Assembly (NCBI RefSeq): GCF_037414475.1
Contig: NZ_CP147913.1
Span: 4,772,001-4,836,000 of the forward strand
DNA from: Myxococcus stipitatus
Lineage (GTDB): Bacteria; Myxococcota; Myxococcia; Myxococcales; Myxococcaceae
Direction: 5' to 3'
DNA length: 64,000 nucleotides
The notes under the pieces were generated by a model. That model was not told where the DNA came from. It saw nothing but the letters and a program-made list of their open reading frames with translations, and did not search any database. A program made the translations under genes and the position numbers. Shown in pieces: positions 10,486 through 28,188 of this stretch (position 1 is its first letter; the number at the start of each line of letters is the position of its first letter).

Positions 10486-10596
10486 ATGGGCAACGACGTG
10501 CCCCGCGTCATCTGCACGGCCTTCCACGTGGAGCCGTCGCACGCCGCTGCCCCCATCACTGCCCCGCAACAGCGGGCCGAGGAGGAGTCGAGGTGA
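10486..10596 (+). CDS. Possible 36-aa small ORF just ahead of cmr1
   Basis: ATG at 10486 to TGA at 10594, ending 4 bp before the cmr1 ATG. The product begins MGNDVPRVICTAFHVEPSH and ends RAEEESR. By hand count, G+C is about 70%, 57% and 90% at codon positions 1, 2 and 3, which is the pattern of real genes here; codons upstream of this ATG lose it. No good ribosome site precedes it. It may be a leader peptide coupled to cmr1 (the dev operon of Myxococcus also starts with a small ORF, devI) or the end of a decayed gene. No family recognised. Confidence 0.35.
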   Translation: MGNDVPRVICTAFHVEPSHAAAPITAPQQRAEEESR

Positions 10597-10600
10597 GTCC

Positions 10601-12019
10601 ATGCCATCGCTGAATCTGCCCACGCCACCCAAGGACGCGCCTCCCCGTCTGCGTCTCCCCAGTGGACCGAAGCTGGAGTCGTTCACCCTGGAGCTGAAGA
10701 CCATCACCCCCATCCTGGGCGGCGCGCCTGTCCCGCGTCAGTTGCCCTCCGTGGATGCCATCCGAGCACCCTCCCTGCGAGGCCACCTGCGCTTCTGGTG
10801 GCGTGCCCTGTATGGCCATGCCTATAGCGATGAGACCCGGCTCGACTTCGCGAGGCGTGAACGCAACCTGTGGGGCGGGATGAGCCTGGGCTCGGAGGAG
10901 CCTCGGCGCTCCCAGGTGTCGCTGTGTGTGAGTGGCGTCAGCGACGCGAGCGCAGACCCCGCTTCCATCCATCAGAGCGACCCCTCGTTCTACGCCCTCT
11001 GGCCCACGCGGAATGGCGACGGGGAAGACCCTTCGCCTCGGTGGAAACCTGGCCTCCGGTTCACCCTCGAGGTGCGCGCCCCGGAAGGTGAGCTCATGCA
11101 GGAGGTCCGCAATGCCTTCCGCGCATGGGTGCTCTTCGGTGGTTACGGCTCGCGGACTCGCCGGGGTTGCGGCTCGGTGACGCTGGTCGACCCGCAGGAG
11201 CGCAAGTCGTGGTTGCCCGAGGATGCATCTCGAGCCGAGCTGCGCCGGCTCTTCGGTGACCTGCCTTTCTTGCAACCCGACCTCGCGGGGGCGCCTCGAG
11301 ACCTGCCATTGCTGCGAGGGGCCTGGCTCTACCGTGGCCTCCAGGGCGAGTCCCATCCGCTCGCCAACAACGCCTGGTTGCAGGCGTTGGGCTGGCTGCG
11401 TGAGTTTCGTCAGGGCACCTCGGGCGCCCCCGATGACCGTCCGAGGAACCCGGCCCCGGACGACGACAAGAAGCGGGCGAAGCGCTCCAACTGGCCGGAG
11501 GCGGACAAGATTCGCCACCACGCGAAACCACAGAAAATGAGCGACGGCCCACGCGCCTACCCCGACGAGCATGCGCCTCGCGCGCAGTACTCCCGGAGCC
11601 CCGCGTGGCCTCGAGCGGGCTTCGGATTGCCCATCGTCTTCCACTTCCAGCAAAAGAAGAGAGGCACCGCCAAGGAGTTCTACAAACCCGCCGAGCCCGA
11701 GGGAGTCCAGCTCCAGTGGGCCATGGACTCGGAGAAGGAGCCTCGGGACAGACTGGGCTCTCCGCTCATCGTCAAGGCCATGCCGCTCGCCAATGGGCGC
11801 TTCGAGCCCATCGCGCTGTGGCTGGAGCGTGGCTATCCCAAGGGCGGCAAGGTCGTCATGGTGCAGTCGAGCAGCCTCATCGAGGCGACGCGCGCGGCCT
11901 TCGACACCCTTCGCGCCCGCGACGACCAGCCCCTCTTCAAGCGCTTGCGAGAGACGAAGCCGCTGCGCGACGTGTTCTTCACCTGGCTGAGTGACACGCG
12001 AAAGGCGCGGGAGGCCTAG
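10601..12019 (+). CDS. cmr1: Type III-B CRISPR RAMP protein Cmr1
   Basis: 472 residues from the ATG at 10601, behind the purine-rich gaggaggagtcgagg. The hallmark RAMP start is present: FTLELKTITPILGGA near residue 27, then APSLRGHLRFWWRALYG near residue 58, and a glycine-rich loop FGGYGSRTRRGCGSV near 180. Cmr1 is the RAMP at the 3' end of the crRNA in the Cmr complex and helps engage target RNA. It is first of six cmr genes with gaps of 4 bp or less. There is a charged, probably disordered insert (DDRPRNPAPDDDKKRAKR) mid-protein. Confidence 0.95.
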   Translation: MPSLNLPTPPKDAPPRLRLPSGPKLESFTLELKTITPILGGAPVPRQLPSVDAIRAPSLRGHLRFWWRALYGHAYSDETRLDFARRERNLWGGMSLGSEEPRRSQVSLCVSGVSDASADPASIHQSDPSFYALWPTRNGDGEDPSPRWKPGLRFTLEVRAPEGELMQEVRNAFRAWVLFGGYGSRTRRGCGSVTLVDPQERKSWLPEDASRAELRRLFGDLPFLQPDLAGAPRDLPLLRGAWLYRGLQGESHPLANNAWLQALGWLREFRQGTSGAPDDRPRNPAPDDDKKRAKRSNWPEADKIRHHAKPQKMSDGPRAYPDEHAPRAQYSRSPAWPRAGFGLPIVFHFQQKKRGTAKEFYKPAEPEGVQLQWAMDSEKEPRDRLGSPLIVKAMPLANGRFEPIALWLERGYPKGGKVVMVQSSSLIEATRAAFDTLRARDDQPLFKRLRETKPLRDVFFTWLSDTRKAREA

Positions 12020-12022
12020 CCA

Positions 12023-13867
12023 ATGGCAACTCAATCCCATGTGCTTGTTCTCAAGGTGGGCCCCGTGCAGGGCTTCATCATCCAGTCCCGCCGAACGCGA
12101 GACCTCTGGTTCGGCAGCCACCTGCTCTCCCAGGTGAGTCGCGCGATGGCTCTCTGCCTCAAGGCGTCAGGCGCGGAGCTCATCTTTCCCCATCCGGAGC
12201 AACTCGAGGCTCCGACGACCGCGCCGGAGCGCGGAGACAAAGGGGACGACGACACGCCGAAAGGGTTTCCGAACAAGGTGCTCGCCATCGTGACGGGAGA
12301 CCCTGAGTCCGTGGCGAAAGCAGCGCGCACCGCTGCCAAGAAAGCGCTGCTCGATGCTTGGGCTCTGGTGCGCGGGAAGTGCGAGCACCTGCTCGTCGAG
12401 GGCGCCGACGCCTGGGCCAACGAGCAGCTCGACACCTTCCTGGAGTTTCACGCGGCCTGGGTGCCGCAACAAGGTGAAGCCGGTTACGCGGTGGCGCTCG
12501 AAGAGGCCGAGACGCTCCTGGAGTCACGCCGGGCGCTGCGCGAGTTCACCCCCTGGACTCAGCTGCCTCCCGCCGGAACGCACAAGTCGAGCCTCGATGG
12601 TGGCCGTCCCTCGGTGCTGCGCGGCAAGCGGTCCAAGGGCGGAGAGTGGAAGGGGCTGCGAATCGGCGAGCGCGAGGAGCTGGATGCGCTCGGCTTGCTC
12701 AAGCGGGCCGGGGGAGACCCGGGGCAGTTCGTCCCCGTGCCGAGCATCGGGCTGGCGGCGTGGCTGGAGACGGCGAGCAAGGCGCACAAGCGAGAGCTCT
12801 CCAACCTGCGCGCGGCCTGCTCGGACCGCAAGTTCACGAAGGTCCGTCGGACGGACCTGTCGTGGGTCAACGCGTTCCCCTTCGATGGGCAGGTCCTCCT
12901 TCCCGAGCGGTTGCGTCCCTGCTTCGAGGAATGGAGCGAAGGCGGAGACCGCGAGAACATCCAGCGAGAGGCCGAGCGCTTCCGCGAGGAAGCCGTTCAG
13001 CCGTTGCTCGACGTCATGGGCGTCGCGCCCTATCCCTATGTGGCCTGCCTCTGTGCCGATGGCGACAACATGGGGCAGGCGCTGCGCGAGCTCGCGTTCC
13101 ACGGTGGCATCGAGGCTCATCGGAAGGTCGCCCGTGCGCTCGCGGACTTCACCTCGGAGGCGAAGGTCATCGTTCAGTCCCGGTTCCGGGGGATGCTCGT
13201 CTATGCGGGTGGTGATGACGTGCTCGCCTTCGTGTGTCCTCCGGATGCCGTCGCGTGTGCCCGTGAACTGTCATCCGCCTTTCGACGTCACCTGGCTCCC
13301 GCCATCCAGGGCGTCGTCCAAGAAGCGCCGACGCTCTCGGTGGGGCTCGGAATCGGGCATGTGCTGGAGAGCCTGGGCCAGCTCCTGAATCTGGGGCGGC
13401 AGGCGGAGAAGGCCGCGAAGAACGCGGGCCGCAACGCGCTGGCCATCCTGTTGGCGAAACACGCGGGCCGTGAGCGGCTGTGGGCCTCGAGCTGGGCGAA
13501 CCCCGTCGAGCCCGTGGGGCGGCTCTCACAGGACATGGCGTTGTTGTCCTCCGGTCGTCTGCCCTTGAGCAAGGTGCACGAGGTGGAGGCGATGTCGCGG
13601 CGCTTCGCCGCGGACGTCGCTGCCTCGCACTCGATGGAGCAGGCCGGGGTTCTCGTGGACGAGGTGCGGCGCATCCTGTCGCGAGCCGAAGCGGGGCGGC
13701 AAGAGTCCCCTGTTTCACTCGAGGACGTGGGGCTGGCGAACCTCTCCGACACGGATGGGCGGAAGGCTCACGCGATGCTTCAGGAGTGGGTGTCCCGCGT
13801 GCTCGTGGCGGAGACGCTGGAGCGAGCCGGTCGGACATTGGACCTCAGGAAGGAGGGTGAGGAATGA
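12023..13867 (+). CDS. cmr2: Cas10/Cmr2, GGDD-type palm protein without HD domain
   Basis: 614 residues, much shorter than Cas10 proteins with an N-terminal HD nuclease (often 850-1000). It begins directly with the first palm domain (VGPVQGFIIQSRRTRDLWFG). The second palm has CADGDNMG near residue 345 and the cyclase motif AGGDDVLAF with GGDD near 395-398. By family knowledge, GGDD makes cyclic oligoadenylates from ATP upon target RNA binding, while the HD domain would cut ssDNA. So this complex can probably signal but not degrade DNA through Cas10. No CARF or other ancillary effector lies within the cmr operon. The 3' end overlaps cmr3 by 4 bp. Confidence 0.95.
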   Translation: MATQSHVLVLKVGPVQGFIIQSRRTRDLWFGSHLLSQVSRAMALCLKASGAELIFPHPEQLEAPTTAPERGDKGDDDTPKGFPNKVLAIVTGDPESVAKAARTAAKKALLDAWALVRGKCEHLLVEGADAWANEQLDTFLEFHAAWVPQQGEAGYAVALEEAETLLESRRALREFTPWTQLPPAGTHKSSLDGGRPSVLRGKRSKGGEWKGLRIGEREELDALGLLKRAGGDPGQFVPVPSIGLAAWLETASKAHKRELSNLRAACSDRKFTKVRRTDLSWVNAFPFDGQVLLPERLRPCFEEWSEGGDRENIQREAERFREEAVQPLLDVMGVAPYPYVACLCADGDNMGQALRELAFHGGIEAHRKVARALADFTSEAKVIVQSRFRGMLVYAGGDDVLAFVCPPDAVACARELSSAFRRHLAPAIQGVVQEAPTLSVGLGIGHVLESLGQLLNLGRQAEKAAKNAGRNALAILLAKHAGRERLWASSWANPVEPVGRLSQDMALLSSGRLPLSKVHEVEAMSRRFAADVAASHSMEQAGVLVDEVRRILSRAEAGRQESPVSLEDVGLANLSDTDGRKAHAMLQEWVSRVLVAETLERAGRTLDLRKEGEE

Positions 13868-15084
13868 GCCAGGACTGCTTCGTGCTGCTGCCTCGTGACG
13901 GGTTGTCCGTGAAGGACGGGCGCGGCTGGTACACCAGTGAAGTCGGACGAGGGCACTCCCATCCGTGGCCGTTGCCCACGACGGTGAGAGGCGCGCTGCG
14001 CGCGGCCTGGGGCCAGGACCTCATGACCACTCAGCCCGGCGTGAGGATGACGCCCGCGGAGTGGGAGCAGCGCTCGGCGGGGGTGAAGCTGACGCGCTTC
14101 GTTGCCCTGCGGCGCTTCTTCGCCGAGTCCCCTTTCGAACTCGCTCATCGGATGTGGCCGTTCCCAGCCGATGCGGTGCTGGTGGGGGCCGAGAAAGGCC
14201 CGGTCGGACGGGTGGAGCACCTCCTTCCGCATCGTCCAGCGGCAGGGCGGTCCGCGAGCACCTTGGGTCCCGATGAGGACTCGGCGCGCGAGGGGCTGTG
14301 GCACCCGCGTCGAGTCTCGAGGGGGAAGCCCTCGACGGCACCGCGCTTCTGGTCCGAGGCGGAGATGGTCTGCTGGCTGCTGGGCCACGACGTCGCCGTC
14401 CCTCAAGAGCTCAGTCCCGAGCAGCGCACGGACCTGCACGTGTCCATCGACCCGAGTAGACAGACGGCGGAGGACTCGATGCTGCACTCGCGCCAGGTCG
14501 TGGAGTTGCTGCGACTGGAGCGCGAGGGTGAGAAGGCACCTCGCGCCGTGGAGTGGGCATTGGGGCTGTGCTGCGAGCAGCCGGAACGGGACGCGGTTCG
14601 AGGCTTCCCTTCGGGAGTGCTGGGCCTGGGGGGGCGCAGGCGCCTGACGGACGTGGAGCGTGTGACTCCAGACCTGTTCGCCTGTCCTCCGGAGTTCAAG
14701 CCGAAGGCGTCGAAGGGCCTCCGGCTGGTGTTGGCGACGCCCGCGTGCTTCGCGAGGGGCTGGCTGCCGGATGGCTTCGCACGGGACGCGGGGCTGTACG
14801 TGGGCTCGCTGCCCAAGGTCGCGGGGCCGGTGGTGCTTCGGGCCGCGCTGGTGCCTCGGGCTCAGGACGTGTCCGCGTGGGACATGGTGAAGAAGGAGCC
14901 TCGGCAGACGCGGCGGTGGGTGCCGGCGGGCGCCGTCTATTTCTTCGAGAAGCAGCGCGGTGATGACTTCACCGCGGAAGAGCTGCGCGCGTTGTGGCTG
15001 GCCTCGTGGGGCGGCGGCCATGAGGAAGCGCTCGGGCAGGTGCTGCCCGGTGTCTGGACACCGCCCCCTGCGTCTGGAGCCTGA
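13864..15084 (+). CDS. cmr3: Type III-B CRISPR protein Cmr3
   Basis: 406 residues; ATG overlaps the cmr2 stop (ATGA). N-terminal LLPRDGLSVKDGRGWYTSE and HPWPLPTTVRGALRAAWG match the Cmr3 pattern of a substrate-like first strand followed by P-x-P-T-x-x-GALRA. The C-terminal half holds GFPSGVLGLGGRRRL and a terminal VPAGAVYFFE. Cmr3 caps the 5' handle of the crRNA and contacts Cmr2. Its place between cmr2 and cmr4 is the usual order. Confidence 0.93.
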   Translation: MSQDCFVLLPRDGLSVKDGRGWYTSEVGRGHSHPWPLPTTVRGALRAAWGQDLMTTQPGVRMTPAEWEQRSAGVKLTRFVALRRFFAESPFELAHRMWPFPADAVLVGAEKGPVGRVEHLLPHRPAAGRSASTLGPDEDSAREGLWHPRRVSRGKPSTAPRFWSEAEMVCWLLGHDVAVPQELSPEQRTDLHVSIDPSRQTAEDSMLHSRQVVELLRLEREGEKAPRAVEWALGLCCEQPERDAVRGFPSGVLGLGGRRRLTDVERVTPDLFACPPEFKPKASKGLRLVLATPACFARGWLPDGFARDAGLYVGSLPKVAGPVVLRAALVPRAQDVSAWDMVKKEPRQTRRWVPAGAVYFFEKQRGDDFTAEELRALWLASWGGGHEEALGQVLPGVWTPPPASGA

Positions 15085-15087
15085 GCC

Positions 15088-16023
15088 ATGGAAAGCCGAG
15101 CCTATCTGCTGCAAGCCCTGTCGCCCCTGCACGTGGGGACGGGACAGAGTGTGGGAGTCATCGACCTGCCGCTGATGCGGATGCGCGCCACGGGCATCCC
15201 CATCGTCCCGGGTTCATCGCTCAAGGGCGTGCTGCGTGACTCGCGCAAGCACGACTCGGACAGGGCGCGGAGTGATGCCATCTTCGGACCTCGGCGCGAG
15301 AAGCCGGGCCCCGAGGGGGACCAACCCAGTGAGTACGCGGGGGCGTTGGTGGTGGGGGACGCGCGTCTGCTCGCGCTTCCCGTGCGTGGCTTCGTGGGGA
15401 CGTTCGCCCTGGTGACGTCGCCGTTGTTGCTGGCGCTCGCCCGTCGGGACTGGGGAGGCCGCATGGGCGATGAGGATGTGCCGAAGCCGGTGGCTCCTCT
15501 GGCGAAGTACCAGGCGCGGGTCGCCTCCCTGAAGGACAACGCCTGTCTCTATCGTCACGATGGGCGGCCGCGGGTCTACCTGGAGGACCTGGACCTGGAG
15601 GTGGAGAACCAGGACGACGCCGGGCTCGCCTCCTGGGCCGAGGTGCTCGGTCGCGCGCTTCCCTCCGAGGAGCGCGACATGCTTCTGCGCCGGCTGGTGC
15701 TCGTGGACGACGAGACGATGTCCTTCCTCTGGGAGACGGCGACGCAGGTGGACACCCGCGTGAGCATCAACCCCGAGACGGGCACCGCCGCGCAAGGACA
15801 GCTCTGGACCGAGGAGAGCCTGCCCGCGGAGACGCTGCTGATGGGCGTGATGGCCGCCACGCGGGCCTGGCACCCCGAGCGAAAGCTCGCGGCGAGCGAG
15901 GTGCTCTCCGAGGCCCTGGGAGGGCAGGGGACGATGCTGCAGCTCGGTGGCAAGGCGACGGTGGGGCGTGGCTGGTGCCGCCTCCTGTCCTGGCAGAGCG
16001 GTGGTTCGGAGGGACAGCGATGA
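15088..16023 (+). CDS. cmr4: Type III-B CRISPR RAMP protein Cmr4 (target-RNA nuclease backbone)
   Basis: 311 residues. The RAMP start LLQALSPLHVGTGQSVGVID places an Asp at residue 26, the position of the catalytic Asp that cuts target RNA every 6 nt in characterised Cmr4 (family knowledge). GIPIVPGSSLKGVLRD is the RAMP helix motif, and KATVGRGWCRLL the C-terminal glycine loop. Cmr4 subunits form the backbone along the crRNA. It follows cmr3 by 3 bp, and its TGA overlaps the cmr5 ATG. All key residues are present. Confidence 0.95.
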   Translation: MESRAYLLQALSPLHVGTGQSVGVIDLPLMRMRATGIPIVPGSSLKGVLRDSRKHDSDRARSDAIFGPRREKPGPEGDQPSEYAGALVVGDARLLALPVRGFVGTFALVTSPLLLALARRDWGGRMGDEDVPKPVAPLAKYQARVASLKDNACLYRHDGRPRVYLEDLDLEVENQDDAGLASWAEVLGRALPSEERDMLLRRLVLVDDETMSFLWETATQVDTRVSINPETGTAAQGQLWTEESLPAETLLMGVMAATRAWHPERKLAASEVLSEALGGQGTMLQLGGKATVGRGWCRLLSWQSGGSEGQR

Positions 16024-16442
16024 ACGGCCAGACGCGAGAGCAGCTGCGGGCGCTCCGTGCGTATCAATGTGTGAGGGCTGTTCCAACGGGACTCCGCGCG
16101 GACTACAAGCCGCGCGTGCATGGACTGGGGGCCTCGGTCCTCCGGGATGGGTTGGCGGCGGCCTTGGCGTTCCTGGAGCGGGAGAAGAAAGCGGATGAGC
16201 GGGAGCCGCTGGGGACGAACGCCGCGAAGTGGCTATTGAACGACTTGGCGAAGTCGCTCGAGAGCGCACCCCTCCCTGAGTTGAACCGGCGGCTGACCAC
16301 GATGTCCCTGCCTGATGCCGTGCGGGAGCTGAAGCTGGAGGAATACATGCTGGCCACGCGCGAGACGCTGCGGCTGTTGGTGTGGTTCCGCCGTGCCGTG
16401 CAGGCCACGTTCAAGGACTCGGAGGCGACTCGTGCGCCATGA
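16020..16442 (+). CDS. cmr5: Type III-B CRISPR small subunit Cmr5
   Basis: 140 residues from the ATG overlapping the cmr4 stop; mostly predicted helix, with MNGQTREQLRALRAYQCV at the start and LGASVLRDGLAAALAFLERE in the middle, as in the alpha-helical Cmr5 small subunit. It stacks along the Cmr4 filament and holds the target RNA. Its end overlaps the likely GTG start of cmr6 by about 11 bp. Confidence 0.9.
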   Translation: MNGQTREQLRALRAYQCVRAVPTGLRADYKPRVHGLGASVLRDGLAAALAFLEREKKADEREPLGTNAAKWLLNDLAKSLESAPLPELNRRLTTMSLPDAVRELKLEEYMLATRETLRLLVWFRRAVQATFKDSEATRAP

Positions 16443-17511
16443 CCTGAGAGGAATTTGGCAGACGCTCGAGGAGGGCCCCGACCACGCGGGCCTGGCCCAT
16501 GAGCGCTATGCGCCTGAGAAGGACGACCTCGAGGAGAAGAAATCCCCTTGGCGCAAGTGGTTGCAGTGGATGGAGGATGCTCGCGTCCCACGGGACTACG
16601 CGGTCGCCTTTGCCCGCTGGCGTGAGTCTCTTCGTCAGTGGCACACCGCCTCCGTCACGGTGCGAGCGGCGAGCCGTCTTCTCGTGGGCCATGGGAATGC
16701 CTCGCCCACGGAGGTGGGCCTGACGCTACATCACACGTGGGGGGTACCAGTGATTCCGGGCTCGTCGTTGAAGGGCGTACTCGCGGCCTACTTGCGCGCG
16801 TCCTTCGAGCCCTCGGAGGTGGAGGTCGCGTGTCGCAGACTGTTCGGTGTCCCGGGCGACAGGCTCACGGGGCAGGGAGCATGCAGGGGAGAGGTCATCT
16901 TTCACGATGCGCTCTGGGTGGCGTCTCCGGTCAAGGATGATGCGAAGACTCCGCTGATGCTGGCGCGCGACGTGCTGACCGTACACCAGAAGACCTGGTA
17001 CGGCGGCGCCAAGGCGTGGCCGAACGACTACGACTCTCCGAACCCCGTGGCCTTCCTGTCGGTCCGGCCCGAGGGGCGCTTCCTCCTGGCGCTGAGCGTG
17101 GCCCCTGGCGCGGATGCGGAGTCCATCGAGTTGCTTCGGTGGGCCGCGAACCGGCTCTGTGAGGCTTTGCGTTTGTGTGGTGTGGGGGGAAAGACGTCCG
17201 CCGGTTATGGACGGCTGATTCCCGAGGGCGAGGTGGTGGTTGGTGCGGCTCGCGCGATGTCCCGGCCGTCGCCGGTGCGGGATGAATTCAAGGTGTGGTT
17301 GGAGGCGCGGCGCGAGGCGAAGACGGGGCAGCGCGAGGTGCTCAACGAATTCGAGTCAGATTGGCTGGGGCGATTGTCCGCGCTTCCTCACGAGGTGCGC
17401 GCGGAATGTGCAGAGGCGGTGCGCTCGTTGGTGAAGAAGAACCCCAAGCTTCAGGTGCGACGAGATGAGCTGCTCGCGAGACTGCTCGCCCCCTCTTCGG
17501 GCAATCACTGA
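16432..17511 (+). CDS. cmr6: Type III-B CRISPR RAMP protein Cmr6
   Basis: 359 residues with the start set at GTG 16432; an in-frame ATG at 16393 lies deep inside cmr5 and has no ribosome site. RAMP features: HTWGVPVIPGSSLKGVLAAY near residue 100, CRGEVIFHDALW, and the C-terminal GGKTSAGYGRLIPEG loop. Cmr6 sits with Cmr1 at the 3' end of the crRNA. The C-terminal ~80 residues are a charged helical tail. It is the last cmr gene; a 274-bp gap separates it from cas6. Confidence 0.93.
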   Translation: MRHDLRGIWQTLEEGPDHAGLAHERYAPEKDDLEEKKSPWRKWLQWMEDARVPRDYAVAFARWRESLRQWHTASVTVRAASRLLVGHGNASPTEVGLTLHHTWGVPVIPGSSLKGVLAAYLRASFEPSEVEVACRRLFGVPGDRLTGQGACRGEVIFHDALWVASPVKDDAKTPLMLARDVLTVHQKTWYGGAKAWPNDYDSPNPVAFLSVRPEGRFLLALSVAPGADAESIELLRWAANRLCEALRLCGVGGKTSAGYGRLIPEGEVVVGAARAMSRPSPVRDEFKVWLEARREAKTGQREVLNEFESDWLGRLSALPHEVRAECAEAVRSLVKKNPKLQVRRDELLARLLAPSSGNH

Positions 17512-17785
17512 GGGGGCGAGGAATCATCGGGGGGCCCGGAGCGGAGGGCGTCAAGGAGCGCCGCTTTTGCTGCGTCCGGGTCGGAGGTTGCTTCACAATC
17601 CCGTGTCGGTCCACGAACTGATTGGGTGATGTCGAGACCCAGGGCCTGAACAACAAGAGGTCCCAGGGCAGTATGGCCTGCCTTGGTGACGCATGACCTG
17701 GCCGTGGGGCTGGCATCCATGAGGTAAAGCCGTAATCGCAGGGAACACGCGTCGCGGCGGCCGCCGCGATGATTCGAGGGTGAAA
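17512..17785 (+). other. Intergenic region between cmr6 and cas6
   Basis: Probably the junction between the cmr operon and the dev-type cas operon, so it should carry the cas6 promoter. A 71-codon open frame on the minus strand (17505-17720) crosses it and stays open further upstream (DACSLRLYL), so it could be the tail of a decayed gene, but no family is recognised. No devI-like small protein was found. Confidence 0.35.
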
Positions 17786-18415
17786 ATGTCTGTGATTGAC
17801 CTTGTCTTCCCCGCGCGTGGCGGCGGGGTTCCGCTGGACCATGGCTACGTCCTGTTCTCCGCGCTTTCTCACCGGCTCCCGGGATTGCATGAGCGCAAGG
17901 ACGTCGGAATCTTCAACCTGCGCGGCACCCAGGCCCGTGGGAAGGCGCTCCACGTGGGACACGGGACGCTGCGCATCCGTTGCCCAACGGAGGCCCTACC
18001 GCTGTTCCTGCCCCTCAACGGCGCGGCCCTCGCCGTCTCCGATGGAGAGGTCACCCTGGGGGCTCCCCGGGTCTTCACGTTGGAGGCACCTGTGTCGCTG
18101 TCCTCGCGGCTCGTCACCTTCAAGCACGCCATCGACGATGCGACGTTCCGTGCTTCCGTGAAGAGGGCCCTCGCGGAGTTGGACTGCGAGGGGACGGTAC
18201 ACGTTGGGCGTAGGCGCGTGCTGGCCATCGCGGGGAAGAAGGTCATCGGGTATGCCCTGACGCTGAGCCAGCTGTCGGCGCGCTCGTCCCTGCGCATCCA
18301 GGAGTACGGGCTCGGTGGGCGGCGTCACATGGGCTGTGGGCTCTTTCTTCCCACGCGCCTGCGGATGGCGACAGGGCCGCGGATGAACGACGCGCAGGTG
18401 GAGTGCTTCGCGTGA
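17786..18415 (+). CDS. cas6: Cas6 crRNA endoribonuclease, Cmx6/MYXAN type
   Basis: 209 residues. ATG 17786 is preferred over GTG 17780 because gaggg lies 5 bp upstream. The protein starts with a ferredoxin-like first strand (SVIDLVFPARGGG, then LDHGYVLFSALS) and ends with the Cas6 glycine-rich loop YGLGGRRHMGCGLF near residues 174-187. Small size and sequence style fit the MYXAN-type Cas6 found first in Myxococcus dev operons. It cuts the array transcripts within the shared repeat and must supply crRNAs to the Cmr complex, as no other Cas6 is seen. Its stop overlaps the cas3 remnant start (GTGA). Confidence 0.85.
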   Translation: MSVIDLVFPARGGGVPLDHGYVLFSALSHRLPGLHERKDVGIFNLRGTQARGKALHVGHGTLRIRCPTEALPLFLPLNGAALAVSDGEVTLGAPRVFTLEAPVSLSSRLVTFKHAIDDATFRASVKRALAELDCEGTVHVGRRRVLAIAGKKVIGYALTLSQLSARSSLRIQEYGLGGRRHMGCGLFLPTRLRMATGPRMNDAQVECFA

Positions 18416-18750
18416 ACCCCCCCTCCCGCCTCCTCGCCAAGAGCGTGCGGGCGGGAGTCGCGCCCGTGTCGCTCGAGGCGCATCTGCTAGATACCGAGGC
18501 CGCCGCCGTCGCCCTGTTCGCGGGCGAGCGGCGACTGGCTCGCAACTTCCGTCGATTCTTTCGAGTGGCCCCTGAGGATTTGGAGCGTTTCGTGCTCCAT
18601 CTGAGGCTGGCGTGCCTCTTCCACGACCTGGGCAAGGCCAACGCCGACTTCCTCCTGGCGGTTCAGGCGCGGCACTCCGTCCTCCAAACGTTGCGCCATG
18701 AGCACCTCTCCGCGACCGCGAGGATTCAAGCCGCACTCGGCGCGAGCTGA
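18412..18750 (+). pseudogene. cas3: Truncated Cas3: HD-domain fragment only
   Basis: A GTG-initiated frame overlapping cas6 by 4 bp encodes 112 residues that match the N-terminal HD nuclease of Cas3: LEAHLLDTEAAA near the start, LACLFHDLGKAN (metal His-Asp) mid-way, and LRHEHLS. Homology stops about residue 103; the frame ends shortly after and the rest of the HD domain and the whole helicase are absent. With no helicase it cannot act as Cas3. The fragment keeps its start and coupling, so a short protein may still be made. Confidence 0.85.
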
Positions 18751-18963
18751 TGGCCCCGCTGGAAGTGCCGACGCTCGAGCCACCCGAGTCCGCGTGGAAC
18801 TGGACACCCTGGTCTCCGGATTCGCGGGCGGGCGTGGTGAAGACAAATCATTGAGTGTGTTTGGGTTGAGAGCTGCCGTGGGAGTCGTGAATCTGGAAGT
18901 GCTCTCGCTTCTGCCGAGTTTGTTTTGCGCTAGGGCGGGAGCCTTTCATTGGGGGCCAGTTCC
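18751..18963 (+). other. Deletion junction between the cas3 remnant and cas4-cas1
   Basis: In the dev-type order this 213-bp interval should contain the rest of cas3 plus the Cascade genes cas8 (devT), cas7 (devR) and cas5 (devS). It contains none of them. One frame from the ATG at 18750 to the TGA at 18852 gives 34 residues with VPTLEPPESAWNWTPW and ends GVVKTNH, which looks like the C-terminus of a lost gene. The stretch after 18855 is less GC-rich and may hold a promoter for cas4-cas1. Confidence 0.5.
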
Positions 18964-20625
18964 ATGAGTCCTGAAACCACGAATCCGCGGCCTGCGGTGG
19001 TTGAGCCGACCCTGCGTGTCCATTCGTTGCATGCGCTCGCGTACTGCGAGCGGTTGTTCTACTTGGAGGAGGTCGAAGAGGTGAGGGTGGCGGATGCCTC
19101 CATCTTCGCGGGCAGGCGCCTGCACGCGCGGTTGGAGCAGGAGGGCGAACGGGTGGAAATGGAGGTCTCCAGCGAAGGGCTGGGGCTTCACGGCAAGGTG
19201 GATGCCGTGCGCGAGCGCGCGGGGACCTTGGTGGTTCACGAGCACAAGCGGGGGCGGCACGCGTCTGGAGCGGAGGGGGTGGAGGCTTGGCCGGGAGATC
19301 GGCTTCAGGTTGGGGCCTATGCGCTGCTGGTGGAGGAGCGCTTTCCGGGGGCGGCGGTGGAATGCAGGGTTCGCTATCACCAGACGGAGACGACCGTCTG
19401 CTTTCCATTGGACGAGCGGCTCAGGCGAGACGTGGTGGCGGCGGTTGCTCGGGCTCGGCTCTTGCGTTCTTCGGGAGTGCGCCCTCCCGTGACGACGGAG
19501 GAGCGAAGGTGTGCTCGCTGCTCTCTAGCGCCGGTGTGTCTGCCGGAAGAGGAGCGGATGGGGAGTGGCGCGGAGCGGCCTCGGTTGTTTCCGGAGGACG
19601 ATGTCCGGCAGGTGCTGCATGTGACCACGGCGGGGAGTCGGGTGGGACGGGCCTCCGATGAGTTGGTGGTGACGCCGCCGGAGGGGGAGGGTGAGCCTGT
19701 GCGGCTACCCGTGCGGATGGTGTCCGCGCTGGTCTCGCATGGGGCGGTGCAGGTCAGCTCCCAGGTGCTGGCGCTCTGCGTGGAGCAGGATGTGGGCGTG
19801 CACTGGTTCACTTCGGGAGGCCGCTACCTGGGTGGACTCGGAGGGGGCTCAGGGAACGTGCAGCGGCGGCTGCGCCAGTTCGAGGCCTTGCGGCAGGAGG
19901 CTGTGTGCCTGGGGCTGGCTCGGCGGCTGGTGTCCGCGAAGCTGGAGGGGCAGCTTCGGTTCCTGTTGCGAGCTTCTCGTGGGGATGCCGAGGCGCGCGA
20001 GGTGGTGGGGTCGGCGGTGCGTGACTTGCGCGCGCTGTTGCCGGGTTGTTCGGAGGCGGTGTCACTGGAGGTGCTGCGCGGCTTGGAGGGGGCCGGCGCC
20101 GCGCGCTACTTCGGGGCGCTGCCGTATTTGCTAGGGGACGAGGTGGACCCGCGGTTGCGCTTCGATGGGCGGAATCGTCGTCCTCCTCGAGACAGATTCA
20201 ATGCGGTGCTTGGATTTCTCTACGGGTTGGTGCACCGCGAGGTGGAAGCGGCGATTCGTTCGGTGGGGCTGGATGTGGCGTTTGGGTTTTATCACCAGCC
20301 GAGGAGTTCGGCGGGGCCGCTTGGACTGGATGTGATGGAGCAGTTCCGTGTGCCCTTGGCGGACATGCCGCTGGTGGCGTCGTTGAACCGTCGAACGTGG
20401 GACGCGGAGGCGGACTTCGAGGTGACGTCCGAGCACGTGTGGCTCAGCAAGACGGGGCGTGCGAAGGCGATTGAGCTGTATGAGCGGCGGAAGCGGGAGA
20501 CTTGGAAGCACAACGTCCTGGGGTACTCGCTCAGCTATGCGCGCCTGGTGGAGTTGGAGGTGCGGCTCTTGGAGAAGGAGTGGACGGGGACACTGGGGTT
20601 GTTCGCGACGTTCCGTCTGAGGTGA
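18964..20625 (+). CDS. cas4-cas1: Cas4-Cas1 fusion (adaptation integrase with PAM-processing nuclease)
   Basis: 553 residues from ATG 18964; a TTG 15 bp upstream is also possible. The Cas4 part (about 1-200) has the PD-(D/E)xK core, Asp in GKVDAV and E-x-K in VVHEHKRG near 93-95, and four cluster cysteines: one in YCER near 27 and three in CARCSLAPVC near 183-192. The Cas1 part begins LHVTTAGSRVG and has the metal ligands: Glu in HREVEAAI, His in FYHQPR near 443, Glu in VMEQFR near 459. Fusions of this kind select PAM-proximal ends during spacer capture. It looks intact, 3 bp before cas2. Confidence 0.95.
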   Translation: MSPETTNPRPAVVEPTLRVHSLHALAYCERLFYLEEVEEVRVADASIFAGRRLHARLEQEGERVEMEVSSEGLGLHGKVDAVRERAGTLVVHEHKRGRHASGAEGVEAWPGDRLQVGAYALLVEERFPGAAVECRVRYHQTETTVCFPLDERLRRDVVAAVARARLLRSSGVRPPVTTEERRCARCSLAPVCLPEEERMGSGAERPRLFPEDDVRQVLHVTTAGSRVGRASDELVVTPPEGEGEPVRLPVRMVSALVSHGAVQVSSQVLALCVEQDVGVHWFTSGGRYLGGLGGGSGNVQRRLRQFEALRQEAVCLGLARRLVSAKLEGQLRFLLRASRGDAEAREVVGSAVRDLRALLPGCSEAVSLEVLRGLEGAGAARYFGALPYLLGDEVDPRLRFDGRNRRPPRDRFNAVLGFLYGLVHREVEAAIRSVGLDVAFGFYHQPRSSAGPLGLDVMEQFRVPLADMPLVASLNRRTWDAEADFEVTSEHVWLSKTGRAKAIELYERRKRETWKHNVLGYSLSYARLVELEVRLLEKEWTGTLGLFATFRLR

Positions 20626-20628
20626 GCC

Positions 20629-20922
20629 ATGGCCGAGCCGAGACGATGGTATTTGATTACCTATGACATCCGGGACCCGAAGCGCTGGCGCAAGGTGTAT
20701 GCGCTGTTGAAGGGGTATGGGGAGTGGTTGCAGCTCTCCGTGTTCCGGTGCCTGTTGACGGATCGGGACCGGGAGCAGCTCCGGTGGGAACTGTCGCGGC
20801 GGATGGACCCCGTGGATACCTTGCTGGTGATTGGGTTGTGTGGTGGATGCGTGGAGCGGGTGCGGGCTATCAACCCCGGGGAGGACTGGCCGGAGGAGCC
20901 ACCGCCGTTCCGTGTGCTGTGA
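20629..20922 (+). CDS. cas2: Cas2 adaptation protein
   Basis: 97 residues, normal length. The first strand [18 protein letters not shown] carries the conserved Asp, followed by [13 protein letters not shown] and the second ferredoxin half with [12 protein letters not shown]. It bridges two Cas1 dimers in the spacer integrase. It ends 19 bp before the array 2 leader, the usual arrangement. Confidence 0.95.
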
Positions 20923-20941
20923 AATGCTGGAAATTCATGCA

Positions 20942-21174
20942 CCTGCGCGTGGCGGAGCGGGGAGTGGCGGGAAAGGGGTGAAAAGCTGAGTCCTTGCGCG
21001 GGGTTGAGTGCTCTTTGACATGTGAATAGGTGCTTGAATGGTGAAAACCCGTGGAGTTCCCGAGGGTTGGAGGATGTGGGAGGCGGAGCCGGAGGTCGTT
21101 GTCCGCAAGAGAGGGGAGGTGCTTGAAAAGAGGGGAGGTAACCTGCCGGAATCCCTGTGGGATTCGGGTGGGCT
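20942..21174 (+). promoter_or_regulatory. Leader of CRISPR array 2
   Basis: Homologous to the array 1 leader. It has the TTTGACA block at 21014-21020, two ggtgcttgaa copies at 21029 and 21118 (again 89 bp apart), and an inverted repeat GGAATCC...GGGATTC (21148-21165) ending 9 bp before the first repeat. TTGACA is the best -35 candidate; no clear -10 hexamer is visible. It lies next to cas2, so it is the likely site of new spacer insertion. Confidence 0.82.
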
Positions 21175-22650
21175 CCGTCGCTCGCCGTGATGCCGGGAGG
21201 CGTTGAGCACGTGATGCGTTGATGAGACAGACTCTACAGAATCTGCTCCGTCGCTCGCCGTGATGCCGGGAGGCGTTGAGCACGCATTACCTGACTTCTT
21301 CCCATCTTTCGTGAACAGCCGTCGCTCGCCGTGATGCCGGGAGGCGTTGAGCACTGGAGGTTGGTCTCCGCGATGACCGGCATGGTGGCCTCCGTCGCTC
21401 GCCGTGATGCCGGGAGACGTTGAGCACCTGCTTCGGGTTGGACTTGTACACCGCGAGCTTGATCCGTCGCTCGCCGTGATGCCGGGAGGCGTTGAGCACG
21501 TGCGCGTACGTGGACACCTTGCTCGAGACGGCGCCGTCGCTCGCCGTGATGCCGGGAGGCGTTGAGCACAAGCAGGTCCGAGGAGACACCAAGGTCAACC
21601 TGAACCGTCGCTCGCCGTGATGCCGGAAGGCGTTGAGCACAAGACCTTGGTCTTCTCGAAGAACACACCCCTCACCCGTCGCTCGCCGTGATGCCGGAAG
21701 GCGTTGAGCACGCAGTCCTCTCGAAGGAGTGAGAACCTGTCGACGAAGCCGTCGCTCGCCGTGATGCCGGAAGGCGTTGAGCACAGCGGCGCCTCTCATT
21801 CGACGCTGGCTCGCGCTCCATCCGTCGCTCGCCGTGATGCCGGAAGGCGTTGAGCACCCAGGCACGCCGAGCGCCCATACGACGTAATCGCCGCGGCCGT
21901 CGCTCGCCGTGATGCCGGAAGGCGTTGAGCACTTGGCCGTTCCGGACATGGGCATGACGGCTACTTCGGCAACCGTCGCTCGCCGTGATGCCGGAAGGCG
22001 TTGAGCACATTCCAAGCCCAGCGCCGAGCCCTGCGCGCGTCTTCCGTCGCTCGCCGTGATGCCGGAAGGCGTTGAGCACCCGTCGGCGCCGCACGAAGCA
22101 AGTCTCAGGTGAGCTTGTCCGTCGCTCGCCGTGATGCCGGAAGGCGTTGAGCACCGGGAAAGGTTGTCGTGGTTGATGGTGAGCATGGCCGTCGCTCGCC
22201 GTGATGCCGGAAGGCGTTGAGCACAGAGCTTTATTGCACTTAATCTGGTCCGGGAAGGGCCGTCGCTCGCCGTGATGCCGGAAGGCGTTGAGCACAAGCT
22301 TGATTCCGGAAGATTCAAAAATCTTCCGGATTCCGTCGCTCGCCGTGATGCCGGAAGGCGTTGAGCACTAGGACAAAGTGGGGGAATCTGCGTTTGAACG
22401 CGCCGTCGCTCGCCGTGATGCCGGAAGGCGTTGAGCACCCTTCTCTCCGAGCGCGGCCCCTAGGGTGTTGCGACCGTCGCTCGCCGTGATGCCGGAAGGC
22501 GTTGAGCACGAAGTCCGGGTGGACGTCACACATGCTTCCCGTCCCGTCGCTCGCCGTGATGCCGGAAGGCGTTGAGCACTGCACGGGGTTCATCCCCAGG
22601 ACTTCACTGACCTTCCGTCGCTCGCCGTGATGCCGGAAGGCGTTGAGCAC

Positions 22651-22788
22651 GTTTCTCCTAAGTAGGTAGCCAGAAGTTCGGAGACAAATTCGGGCTGGAT
22701 GGACAGATTCCTGCTCATGCGACCGGTGAGGAGTCCTGCCGAGCTTGGGCTGACAGCATCCGACAGACGTCGGCTGGAGCGGGCGTTG
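22651..22788 (+). other. Unexplained 138-bp segment between repeat 21 and the IS in array 2
   Basis: An intact spacer would be 33-40 nt, so this left flank is about 100 bp too long, and the right flank (24048-24076) is 29 nt. No decayed repeat can be aligned securely. One minus-strand frame gives plausible residues (RMSRNLSIQPEFVSELLATY). It may be a scrap of another insertion or a rearrangement accompanying the IS. Confidence 0.5.
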
Positions 22789-22835
22789 TGAGCCTCCCCG
22801 GGTTTTGTGGACACCGGAGATGAGGTGACCGAAGG

Positions 22836-23144
22836 ATGTCCACGACGATGCCGAGACGCGAGCGCAGGAAGTACACGCCAGAGTTCAAAGCCCGGGCTGT
22901 GAAGATGGTGCTGGAAGAGGGCAAGTCCCGGGCGCAGGTGGCCAAGGACCTGGACCTGACTCGCAGCGTGCTGGAGACCTGGGTGAGGCAGTCCCGAACG
23001 GACGCGGGCCAGGGGCCGTCCGGGGCGCTGACGACGGGTGAGAAGGAGGAACTCGCCCAGTTGCGCCGCGAGGTGCGCCAGCTGCGGATGGAGCGGGAGA
23101 TACTAAAAAACGCGGCGGCCTTCTTCGCCAAGGAGAGCACGTGA
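22836..23144 (+). CDS. IS3-family transposase OrfA
   Basis: 102 residues: basic start, HTH segment YTPEFKARAVKMVLEEGKSR with QVAKDLDLTRSVLETWV, then a heptad coiled coil (LAQLRREVRQLRMEREILK). Near the end lies the slippery heptamer A-AAA-AAC (23105-23111), the classical -1 frameshift site that makes OrfAB. The TGA overlaps the orfB GTG. Confidence 0.9.
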   Translation: MSTTMPRRERRKYTPEFKARAVKMVLEEGKSRAQVAKDLDLTRSVLETWVRQSRTDAGQGPSGALTTGEKEELAQLRREVRQLRMEREILKNAAAFFAKEST

Positions 23145-24016
23145 GGTTCACGGCCATCCAGGAGGAGAAGGCGAACTACCCGGTGGCGATGCTGTGCCGT
23201 GTGCTGGAGGTGTCCCGGGCGGGCTACTACGCCTGGGAGGGACGTGAAGTGTCGGCACGCCAGAAGGCCAATGCGGCGCTGGTGGAGCGAATCCGGCAGG
23301 TGCATCAGGGCAGCCGCCGCACCTATGGCAGCCCACGCGTCCAGGCCGAGCTGAAGGCCCAGGGGCAGCCCGTGGGCCGGCACCGCGTGGCCCGGCTCAT
23401 GCGCGAGGCAGGGCTACGCGCTCGTCGACGCAGACGGTTCGTGCACACCACGGACTCCAAGCACGGCCTCCCGGTGGCGCCCAACGTGCTGGCTCGCGAC
23501 TTCAATCCACCAAGGCCCGACCGGAAGTGGGCGACGGACATCACGTACGTGCCCACGCGCGAGGGCTGGCTCTACCTGGCAGTGGTGCTGGACCTCTTCA
23601 GTCGGCGCGTCATCGGGTGGGCCATGGACCGCTGCATCGACCGGCACCTGGTGCTTTCGGCTCTCGACATGGCGCTCAAAAGTCGCTGTCCCCCAGCGGG
23701 ACTGCTGCACCATTCGGATAGGGGCAGCCAATACGCCAGTGAGGACTACCAGCGAGTGCTGGCCGCCCGCGGCATCCGGTGCAGCATGAGCCGCAAGGGC
23801 AACTGCTGGGACAACGCCGTGGTGGAGAGCTTCTTCTCCACGCTGAAGACAGAGCTGGTGCACGAAGCGGACTTCTCGACGCGCGAGGCGGCGAAGGGTG
23901 GCTTGTTCGAGTTCATCGAGGTGTTCTACAACCGCAAGCGGCGGCACTCCTCACTCGGCTACGTCAGTCCCGCCGAGTTCGAGAAGACCGCCTCGCAGGT
24001 GCCGCTGGCTGCTTAA
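23141..24016 (+). CDS. IS3-family transposase OrfB (DDE integrase)
   Basis: 291 residues from GTG 23141, overlapping the orfA stop. HTH_21 part: CRVLEVSRAGYYAWEGR and YGSPRVQAEL. Catalytic core: Asp in WATDITYVPT, Asp in LLHHSDRGSQY, Glu in NAVVESFFSTLKTEL, followed by the conserved FYNRKRRHSSLGYVSP. All catalytic residues are present and length is normal, so it is potentially active. Confidence 0.93.
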   Translation: MRFTAIQEEKANYPVAMLCRVLEVSRAGYYAWEGREVSARQKANAALVERIRQVHQGSRRTYGSPRVQAELKAQGQPVGRHRVARLMREAGLRARRRRRFVHTTDSKHGLPVAPNVLARDFNPPRPDRKWATDITYVPTREGWLYLAVVLDLFSRRVIGWAMDRCIDRHLVLSALDMALKSRCPPAGLLHHSDRGSQYASEDYQRVLAARGIRCSMSRKGNCWDNAVVESFFSTLKTELVHEADFSTREAAKGGLFEFIEVFYNRKRRHSSLGYVSPAEFEKTASQVPLAA

Positions 24017-25139
24017 CCCACCTGTCCACAGAACCCGGGCAAGCTCAAGGGGCCATCAGGGAAAACCATCCGGCTCCCGTCGCTCGCCGTGATGCCGGAA
24101 GGCGTTGAGCACCGGCGTTGCGTGCGCACCGTCAACCACACTAAGGAGGGGACCGTCGCTCGCCGTGATGCCGGAAGGCGTTGAGCACTACAGGGTGATT
24201 TGTTGGGAGTCGTCGTCAGTCGGCCCCGTCGCTCGCCGTGATGCCGGAAGGCGTTGAGCACTGGACGCCCAGTTTGTGCGGGACCTCCAAGGGTCCGTCG
24301 CTCGCCGTGATGCCGGAAGGCGTTGAGCACGTCGCGGAGGGTGGTGGGCGCGACACGAGCACTCTGACCGTCGCTCGCCGTGATGCCGGAAGGCGTTGAG
24401 CACTTGGTCTTGATGGCCTTGCGAATCTCCGCGAGGCGCCCGTCGCTCGCCGTGATGCCGGAAGGCGTTGAGCACCCATGACGAGCGAACGTGTTGAGAT
24501 TCATTCGCGCAAACCTTCGCTCGCCGTGATGCGGGAAGGCGTTGAGCACACGAAGCCGAAGATGGGCTTGTAGTTGACGAGAACCGTCGCTCGCCGTGAT
24601 GCCGGAAGGCGTTGAGCACAGCGGCTGCCAGCCGTCAGCAGCGAGCCGCTTCCGCTGTCGCTCGCCGAGATGCCGGAAGGCGTTGAGCACTACAGGTCCG
24701 TGTCCGACTTGAACGCCTCGCACGCCGTCGTTCGCCGTGATGCCGGAAGGCGTTGAGCACCAGGCGCCACGAGCGGCATGTTGCAGGCCCCCACCCGTCG
24801 TTCGCCGAGATGCCGGAAGGCGTTGAGCACGAGGAGCGGCGCGATTCGGTACGCCCAGCTCCTGGAACCGTCGCTCGCCGAGATGCCGGAAGGCGTTGAG
24901 CACTACGTCGTCCAGATGGTGTTTCCGGCCATGATGAGCCGTCGCTCGCCGTGATGCCGGAAGGCGTTGAGCACGTCATGCCCGTGTACGGGAGGCCCTT
25001 GTTATCGGCCGTCGCTCGCCGTGATGCCGGAAGGCGTTGAGCACGCGAGACTTCACATGGCACAATGATGCGCCTCGCCGTCGCTCGCAGTGGTTCCGGG
25101 AGGCGTTGAGCACCACGCGAACTCCGCCAACTTCTCTGA

Positions 25140-25919: not shown

Positions 25920-26210
25920 AGCACTGCCTGGTCCTCGAGGTCCTCCCTCGAACCACCGTCTTCCCAATCGCAATCCCTGCCGCGATTGGCAACGCTTGCC
26001 TCCATTTCCACCTCAGTCCCGGCAACCCTTGCCATTCCCTCACGTCCCGGCCCTCTGCGGGGCCGCTGGCACTCGGGTTGCTCTGCCCGGGCTCGCTCCG
26101 TCACTCGGGGCCGCATGGTGCGGCATCCAGGCTCGGAGCCCCCTCGGCCATGCTTGGCGGACTGTCGCTTCGCTCGCGCATGGCTGTCTTTGAAAGGACC
26201 GGGTTTCTCC

Positions 26211-27056
26211 ATGCACTCACCCTCTTGGCCCTCCGTGCGCAACCTCCTCTTCGCCCTCCCGCTCGCCACCTTCACCGTCGCCTGTGGTGGCGAAGGCATC
26301 GAGCCCGACTCTCCGCAGGCAGCGTCCCCCGCCGTCACCGATGAGGCCATCGGCCAGACCGCGCAACAGATCACTGTTGAAGCCCCTCATACGTGGCGCA
26401 CCAACCAGCCCGAATCCATTTACGCGTCCCTCGGCTCCTCCACCAACCGCACCTGCTTCCTCTCCGCCCTCGGCGGCAACCTCCAACCTGCCCCTGGCAG
26501 CCTCGAGTGGGGTATGGCCGGTGCCCTCATGTACGCGGGCGAGTGGAAGGTCTTCGTCAGCCAGACCTTCAACACCGCCCTGTCCACCACCGTCCAGTGC
26601 GTCACCACCGCCGCCAACCGCACCGCCGAGGTCGTCTGGTACAACGGCCAGGCCGCCAAGCTCCTCGGCGCCGTGACGGCCGACCGCCGCTGCTTCCTCA
26701 CTCGGATCGAGGGCGCCGGGGGCTTCGACTCCACCTCCGACTACGTCCGCGTCTGGAATGACGGCCTCAACTGGTACCTCGGCGGTGACCTCGCCGACGA
26801 GGGCGGCGCCCGCGCCATGTGCGTCGACATCCCCGAGGACCATGGCAGCTGGGGCTGGAGCACCGGCGCGAGCGACAAGACCGTCAGCCTCGCCTACAAC
26901 CCCGGCGGCATCGCCTGCTTCCTCCACAGCCTCGGTGGCAACTTCAACCAGAACAACTACGGGGACGGCGTGAGCGTCGACTACAACGCCGGCACTCGCA
27001 CCTGGGAGATGAACGTCTCCCCGTACAAGCGCGGCGGGGCCAGCTGCGTCAAGTAA
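26211..27056 (+). CDS. Cysteine-rich lipoprotein with three internal repeats
   Basis: 281 residues. Start at ATG 26211, giving a lipoprotein signal with NLLFALPLATFTVAC. The mature protein holds three related modules of about 60-70 residues, each opening CFL (CFLSALGGN, CFLTRIEGA, CFLHSLGGN), containing a V-x-W or W-x-x-N core, and closing CV (VQCVTT, AMCVDI, ASCVK). Each module thus brings two cysteines, suggesting one disulphide each on the outer-membrane surface. I do not recognise the family or a catalytic motif; repeated beta modules suggest binding. A hairpin terminator follows, and a decayed tandem copy lies next to it. Confidence 0.75.
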   Translation: MHSPSWPSVRNLLFALPLATFTVACGGEGIEPDSPQAASPAVTDEAIGQTAQQITVEAPHTWRTNQPESIYASLGSSTNRTCFLSALGGNLQPAPGSLEWGMAGALMYAGEWKVFVSQTFNTALSTTVQCVTTAANRTAEVVWYNGQAAKLLGAVTADRRCFLTRIEGAGGFDSTSDYVRVWNDGLNWYLGGDLADEGGARAMCVDIPEDHGSWGWSTGASDKTVSLAYNPGGIACFLHSLGGNFNQNNYGDGVSVDYNAGTRTWEMNVSPYKRGGASCVK

Positions 27057-27073
27057 TCCCTTTCAACCCAAGA

Positions 27074-27100
27074 CCTGGGCTCGTCTTTCGCGGGCCCAGG
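27074..27100 (+). terminator. Hairpin terminator of the first lipoprotein unit
   Basis: CCTGGGCTCG, loop tcttt, CGCGGGCCCAGG; 18 bp after the stop codon. There is no long U-tract (cccctctccc follows), so termination strength is uncertain. The same hairpin recurs after the duplicated copy. Confidence 0.6.
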
Positions 27101-27357
27101 CCCCTCTCCCAGACACCTTTCACCGCATTCAAAAGCGCAAGCCCTGCCCCGACCGGCAACCCTTGCCTCCCCATTCACGGCAATTCTTGCCTTTCCCCCA
27201 CGGCCCCTCCCTCTGTGGGGCCACTGGCATTCGGGTTGCTCTACCCGGGCTCACTCCGTGACTCGGACCCGCATGGTGCGGTGTCCCGGCTCGGCCATGC
27301 TCGGCGTGCTGCCGCTTCGCTCGCGCATGGCTGTCATTGAAAGAACCGGGTCTCTCC

Positions 27358-28170: not shown

Positions 28171-28188
28171 TCCCTTTCACATCCACGC

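Follow-up and report, generated by a model that had tools for sequence, protein, structure and literature searches.

Within a 64,000 nt stretch of the Myxococcus stipitatus genome (NZ_CP147913.1, positions 4,772,001–4,836,000; referred to here as the window), the genes of a type III-B CRISPR (clustered regularly interspaced short palindromic repeats) effector, cmr1–6, are followed by what remains of a type I system of the MxI-B (I-MYXAN) group, namely cas6, a fragment of cas3, a cas4-cas1 fusion and cas2. The window genome, labelled G000, is a single contig of 10.31 Mb. Alignment to the closest intact relative found showed that, as far as the two assemblies record it, a single deletion of 5,213 bp relative to that genome made the window locus. 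The locus was probably once a composite of III-B and MxI-B from which one deletion removed the type I effector, and cas6 and cas4-cas1-cas2 probably now serve the Cmr arrays. The same outcome with different breakpoints was found in three relatives, in all of which Cmr genes lie directly upstream of cas6.

The closest intact relative (G070, a single-contig genome of 10,350,586 bp, putatively that of strain Myxococcus stipitatus DSM 14675) carries, in order, cmr1–6, cas6, cas3 (779 aa as read), cas8 (Cmx8), cas7, cas5, cas4-cas1, cas2 and an array. In a blastn comparison, bases 17738–18714 of the window matched bases 9349–10326 of the G070 locus (L062) in reversed orientation with 87% identity, and bases 18714–21283 matched bases 15539–18098, also reversed, with 86% identity. 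From these two blocks, an alignment of the junction and the length relative to G070, the deletion junction was placed at base 18714, where 5,213 bp are absent with no inserted sequence and a 1 bp overlap. Here, codon 104 of cas3 is joined to approximately codon 198 of cas5 and the last 46 or so cas5 codons survive. Because the deletion took cas3 beyond codon 104, cas8 and cas7 in full and the greater part of cas5, DNA interference by the window type I system must be lost, and the combination of a cas3 helicase with cas8-cas7-cas5 that makes up an MxI-B effector is not present in the window genome. Both flanks are syntenic among G000, G070 and a further relative, G061; the locus is orthologous in the three genomes and the deletion therefore occurred in place.

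The genes around the scar are all on the + strand. The cas6 gene (Cmx6, MYXAN type; ATG at 17786, stop at 18415; TIGR02807, E 2e-64) shares its final bases with the first bases of the cas3 fragment (18403–18750, 115 aa; Pfam Cas3_HD, E 9.8e-8). The open reading frame (ORF) of this fragment consists of 104 codons from the beginning of the HD domain (profile positions 2–85 of 207), 89% identical to the corresponding residues of the G070 Cas3, and 11 out-of-frame codons from the cas5 relic. The relic (18715–18854) is out of frame with the cas3 fragment and its translation matches the C-terminus of the G070 Cas5. The cas4-cas1 fusion (MYXAN type, active-site residues retained in alignments; TIGR03983, E 8.5e-165) is at 18964–20625 and cas2 (PF09827, E 1e-18) at 20629–20922. 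In a profile search, cas6_cmx6 and the Cas4-fused cas1_MYXAN both exceeded the curated cut-offs. A preliminary description of this region had listed cas6, a cas3 HD fragment, a 213 bp gap, cas4-cas1, cas2, a leader and an array, and all are present as described. The gap (18751–18963) does have that length but is not empty: because the right end of the deletion lies within cas5, about half of it, together with the end of the cas3-fragment ORF, is cas5 relic. The same description had attributed the absence of the cas3 helicase and of all Cascade genes to one internal deletion. Aligning the locus with relatives, as it had recommended, placed both ends against the syntenic G070 locus and bore this out, except that the 3′ end of cas5 remains.

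A second proposal, that the operon is of the dev type and that the loss might matter for development, as devTRS also affect sporulation in M. xanthus, was not supported. The effector of G070 includes Cmx8 (TIGR04413, E 1e-199) where dev-type loci carry DevT (TIGR03485/TIGR03486; shown for L041), its Cas7 has about 32–35% identity with the DevR-type Cas7 found in dev loci, and its Cas5 barely passes the DevS model. All eight dev-type loci in the family survey described below matched the DevT, DevR and DevS of L041 over most of their length. Because the surviving cas3 and cas5 pieces match G070, the Cascade lost from the window appears, by comparison with that genome, to have been the Cmx8 kind of MxI-B. 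Of six genomes searched, only G070 matched the Cmx8 model. A genome-wide search of G000, of the sort the preliminary description had suggested for devTRS or cas8-7-5 genes elsewhere, found no match to the Cmx8, Cas5/DevS, DevT or DevR-family models, each of which matched at least one of the five other genomes; the DevT, DevR-family and DevS models matched G076 but not G000. The window copy is the sole MYXAN-type cas6 in G000. As the lost Cascade would be of the Cmx8 kind and not devT/devR/devS, and the cas5 relic is G070-like, a developmental consequence is unsupported.

Loss of the effector is not confined to the window. In a survey of 96 genomes of the same GTDB family, 17 exceeded the cas1_MYXAN cut-off and one of these (G074) was excluded as its contigs break inside the locus, leaving 16. 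The search started from cas6 and cas1, favouring loci that retained both. Eight of the 16 loci were dev-type, four were Cmx8-type with each of the four effector genes detected (G070, G032, G042 and G088) and four were effector-less (G000, G061, G055 and G037). Two of the Cmx8-type loci are rearranged, with cas4-cas1 and the array preceding cas6 in G032 and the effector genes inverted in G042. In G061, a deletion of 4,942 bp relative to G070 runs from approximately codon 41 of cas3 to codon 39 of cas5 with 6 bp of microhomology; the cas5 relic carries a frameshift, and identity with the G070 protein is 93% for one of its two pieces and 98% for the other. In G055 (Myxococcus dinghuensis), cas3 up to approximately codon 267 is joined to cas5 from approximately codon 77, and the cas3 relic apparently lacks an internal piece around the Walker A region. 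In G037, nothing was recognised between cas6 and cas4, and cas4 is missing roughly its first 110 codons. The deletions in G000 and G061 overlap but are not nested and are therefore independent and, because the relics differ among the loci, four deletion events were counted. A tree of cas4-cas1 placed G061 as sister to the intact G070 (99/94), in agreement with the flank identities. The 'deleted' label needs three changes on this tree, and 124 of 500 shuffles needed equally few. Beyond cas2, all four effector-less loci have kept a long array (repeat counts: window, 36; G061, 64; G055, 63; G037, 31).

A wider survey covered the best 80 of 199 cas4-cas1 relatives, four of them family members, and scored the detection of genes by tblastn, not their integrity. 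All four of cas3, cas8, cas7 and cas5 were detected in 61 of the 64 relatives with at least 7.6 kb upstream (58 of the 60 outside the family). The three exceptions were L077, which is the M. dinghuensis locus and the only one of the 80 with a detected cmr gene, L111, where cas7 and cas5 alone of the four effector genes were detected, and L081. The possibility that the Cascade-free arrangement is ancestral and that the Cascade was inserted in G070 is almost certainly wrong. Adaptation modules with no detected effector do exist, L081 being an example, but cas3 and cas5 relics stand in the correct order around the window scar, which contradicts such an origin outright, all four effector genes were detected in most related loci with enough sequence upstream, and G061 and G055 retain different cas3 and cas5 pieces. 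The preliminary description had named relatives with this gene order and no Cascade ancestor as the finding that would overturn it, and this is not what the window locus and its relatives show. An assembly or culture artefact of the window genome could be suspected, as one genome per species was available and only as an assembly. It is very improbable given a single-contig genome with diverged relics on either side of the junction and the same segment deleted differently in three other genomes. We think it equally improbable that the cas3 fragment is a working small protein with a new role. Its ratio of nonsynonymous to synonymous change (Ka/Ks) relative to G070 is 0.19 and it still overlaps cas6 at its start, but it contains only the start of the HD domain with out-of-frame terminal codons, and its counterparts are about 41 codons long in G061 and about 267 in G055 with none detected in G037.

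The effector-less loci share their position next to Cmr genes. In these four and in G070, cmr6 immediately precedes cas6 on the same strand, within 1 kb. The effector has been lost from four of the five Cmr-joined MxI-B loci versus none of the 11 unjoined MxI-B loci of the family (Fisher p 0.0027). In the window, where cmr1–6 and a GGDD motif in the Cas10 palm provide the genes of a type III-B system, the cmr genes are all on the + strand: cmr1 (ORF limits 10160–12019, start probably later; Pfam RAMPs, E 4e-21, and TIGR01894), cmr2/cas10 (12023–13867; TIGR02577, E 1e-57, with the GGDD motif read from the sequence), cmr3 (13864–15084; PF09700, E 3e-37, below the NCBIfam cut-off), cmr4 (15088–16023; TIGR02580, E 1e-60), cmr5 (15975–16442, start uncertain; PF09701, E 6e-21) and cmr6 (16393–17511, start uncertain; TIGR01898, E 2e-33).

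The cas operon of the window is flanked on the + strand by two leader-array units. Upstream, a leader (6997–7241) precedes an array of 17 repeats (7242–8430) that is interrupted at 8431–9715 by a segment on the – strand containing an IS3-type transposase gene (ORF 8467–9480, with rve and HTH_21 domains) and continues with six repeats (9716–10113), the last of them degenerate. Downstream, the leader (20923–21174) is followed by 21 repeats of 36 bp (21175–22650), a second IS3-like element on the + strand (22651–24076; ORFs 22836–23144 and 23141–24016), which is 65.5% identical to the first over 1,163 bp, and a further 15 repeats, several of them degenerate (24077–25113). An interruption of 1.3–1.4 kb was also seen in one array of each of G061 and G070, with no match to the window IS3-type elements. 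The repeats of the two window arrays are near-identical, and the 32-base repeat core (at most three mismatches) has 58 matches in the 10.31 Mb genome, none of them outside the window. An isolated variant copy of the repeat is found at 795–830, distant from the arrays. The leaders are homologous (74.6% identity over 228 bp) and one adaptation module could therefore serve both arrays. The only other Pfam Cas1 match in the genome belongs to a type I-C locus (cas3, cas5c, cas8c, cas7, cas4 and cas1) with a different repeat.

What remains of the type I system may still be capable of adaptation. The window retains open cas1 and cas2 genes, putative catalytic residues, a leader and an array, and the Cas1 and Cas2 ORFs are open in all four effector-less genomes. 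Residues aligned with the active sites of a Cas4/1 structure (7mi4), which we take to be catalytic, are conserved in all four loci for Cas1 and in three of the four for Cas4. Between the window and G070, Ka/Ks was 0.09 for cas4-cas1, 0.02 for cas2 and 0.10 for cas6. In the downstream array, the repeats near the leader are uniform or carry a local variant, while several of those farther away are degenerate, a pattern that growth at the leader would produce. The six leader-nearest repeats of the 21-repeat part have a one-base variant in common, one of them being altered further. The restriction of this variant to the leader end hints at recent additions, undated relative to the deletion. It is plausible that cas6 and cas4-cas1-cas2 form a processing-plus-adaptation module for Cmr, as the preliminary description had proposed.

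Hu et al. 2024 (PMC11237760) describe adjoining MxI-B and III-B systems in Myxococcus whose similar repeats probably serve both, and they infer for DK1622 that its III-B system uses an array of the MxI-B type. The ancestor of the window locus would have been a composite of this sort, with cmr1–6 joined directly to a Cmx8-kind MxI-B system (cas6-cas3-cas8-cas7-cas5-cas4/1-cas2). After the deletion, Cas6 would still cut the transcripts of both arrays, Cmr would load the resulting CRISPR RNAs (crRNAs) and attack complementary transcripts, and Cas4/1-Cas2 would still insert spacers at both leaders, the remnant acting as the processing and adaptation half of a Cmr system. Once Cmr can use common crRNAs, a type I effector may become dispensable or costly while cas6 and cas1-cas2 stay useful. 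A broader claim would be that, wherever a type I system with interchangeable repeats becomes joined to Cmr, its effector is repeatedly removed in place by selection (four deletions among five loci), which leaves cas6 and cas1-cas2 as the processing and memory unit of Cmr. This is a serious possibility to which we give slightly less than even weight. Short-homology deletions following MxI-B self-targeting were also described by Hu et al. 2024 (PMC11237760), and the 1 bp and 6 bp junctions in the window and G061 are compatible with end joining. Self-targeting was considered as the cause of the deletions and rejected, as short matches alone were present among the matches listed and no self-targeting spacer was found in what was searched. 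When the first part of the downstream array was compared with the G000 genome, the one off-array match was weak (41 nt, 83%; 40 of 65 candidates scored) and extended from a spacer into the neighbouring repeat.

Several observations weigh against these interpretations. When the Cmx8-type family loci alone are considered, the association with Cmr falls to four of five versus none of three (p 0.14), and the loci compared are not phylogenetically independent. In L081, from a separate lineage, cas4-cas1-cas2 is present with neither Cascade nor Cmr detected in the fetched stretch. The cas6 tree pairs G000, and not G061, with G070, though weakly (86/68) and with no effect on the breakpoints. Among 291 distinct spacers from five genomes, none has a same-strand match of 16 bases to a spacer of another genome and, as there are no common spacers, spacer gain cannot be dated relative to the deletion. 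Protospacers were sought by blastn for the downstream array alone, with each of its two parts as query, and among phage records alone (50,697 of them); the hits were weak (best E 0.09) and none was credible. The Ka/Ks of the cas3 fragment is inside the range of the Cmr genes and gives no sign of relaxed constraint, so that the deletion may be young and the genes still present may simply not have had time to decay. For cas4-cas1, Ka/Ks between G061 and G070 was 0.32, above the 0.09 seen with the window, on few changes. Relaxed selection on cas4-cas1 in G061 was considered and rejected, as nonsynonymous (N) and synonymous (S) changes were alike on the two branches (5N:7S on the deleted, 7N:6S on the intact) and the numbers are too small to decide.

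A serious rival is neutral decay caught part-way, in which MxI-B is being lost at random, the effector having gone first in one deletion, and cas6, cas4-cas1 and cas2 linger only for want of time to decay, serving Cmr by accident or not at all. Independent and probably stochastic loss of III-B and MxI-B has been reported in Myxococcus (PMC11237760), and for several relatives that have Cmr-cas6, no MYXAN-type cas1 was detected within the fetched 20 kb. The constraint on the window cas3 fragment and the high identity of the G061 cas5 pieces to G070 also make both deletions look young. On the other hand, random deletions would be expected to strike cas1, cas2, the conserved part of cas6 or cmr1–6, and all four losses spare them, though the search was itself biased toward loci retaining cas6 and cas1. 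In addition, cas1 and cas2 are open and conserved in the far more diverged G055 and G037, where the ages of the deletions are undated. We regard decay as the less likely reading, yet as a much stronger contender than the ancestral, artefactual and small-protein explanations above, and continue to prefer retention of the remnant in the service of Cmr.

Type III systems often lack adaptation genes of their own. The same has been noted for III-B in myxobacteria (PMC11237760), and module shuffling and stand-alone modules are already known (PMC6452270). In our judgement, the way in which a type III effector comes to be paired with type I adaptation genes can seldom be observed while it happens. In the present case, close relatives carry the ancestor-like and the deleted forms at one orthologous site, the scars are still readable, and two more distant relatives show a similar outcome. 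Hu et al. 2024 describe loss of whole systems (PMC11237760), and a literature search, limited in depth, found no published report of effector-only loss from composite MxI-B/III-B loci or of its recurrence; the recurrence of effector-only loss at Cmr-joined MxI-B loci is what is new here. The intact and deleted strains form a set in which it can be tested whether Cascade was costly, redundant or the target of an anti-CRISPR once Cmr used the same crRNAs. The window locus is also now set apart from the developmental dev operon.

Other possible defence genes are located nearby. Upstream of the CRISPR locus, in bases 91–711 of the window and 16389–19220 of the sequence just before it (L073), are genes for a SMODS nucleotide cyclase, a SAVED-peptidase M48 effector and a second SAVED protein, resembling a cyclic oligonucleotide-based antiphage signalling system (CBASS); the isolated repeat copy mentioned above follows the SAVED gene. 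A role for the SAVED proteins as a type III signalling effector beside cmr was considered and rejected because a nucleotide cyclase gene adjoins, and they are read as CBASS for the same reason. At 2942–5911 is a gene for a 989 aa SNF2-type helicase resembling the ZorD/DpdE defence helicases, the end of which is overlapped by an ORF with a SWIM zinc finger (5605–6861). Beyond the downstream array, at 26143–28179, two related stretches lie about 1.1 kb apart with pieces that are 74–89% identical; the two ORFs scanned there had no Pfam match.

The locus can be compared with four known arrangements. The dev operon (cas6-cas3-devT-devR-devS-cas4/1-cas2) has the ancestral gene order of the window locus, and the window cas4-cas1 is 81–83% identical to those of the eight dev-type loci. 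The dev operon differs in that its DevT (TIGR03485/6) is unlike Cmx8, and devT-devR-devS between cas3 and cas4-cas1, by which it is recognised, are absent from the window. The Cmx8 kind of MxI-B in G070 has the layout of cmr1–6, cas6, cas4-cas1, cas2 and array, and the flanks, in common with the window; it retains the cas3, cas8, cas7 and cas5 that the window has lost and shares no spacers with it. Although MxI-B has been called specific to myxobacteria (PMC11237760), fused cas4-cas1 loci with devT-like or Cmx8-like effectors were seen in many phyla, including Planctomycetota and Cyanobacteria (L079–L154). The L081 module (MYXAN-type cas4-cas1-cas2 at 9989–11937) is in an Entotheonella genome with the housekeeping genes serS, purB and purQ upstream.

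Type III-B with cas6 is found in the dev-carrying genomes G076, G060 and G067, where cmr1–6 are followed by a MYXAN-type cas6 with similar repeats beyond, as in the window. No cas4-cas1 was detected in the Cmr stretch of these three genomes; it is present in a separate dev-type locus with its cas6 18–30 kb distant, whereas in the window cas4-cas1 follows cas6 in the operon. Finally, the pairing of type III effectors with various adaptation modules by recombination, reviewed by Koonin and Makarova (PMC6452270), is modular in the same way as the pairing of effector and adaptation genes in the window. Compared with the cases presented there, the window pairing arose through the in-place loss of a neighbouring type I effector, and the scar can still be read.

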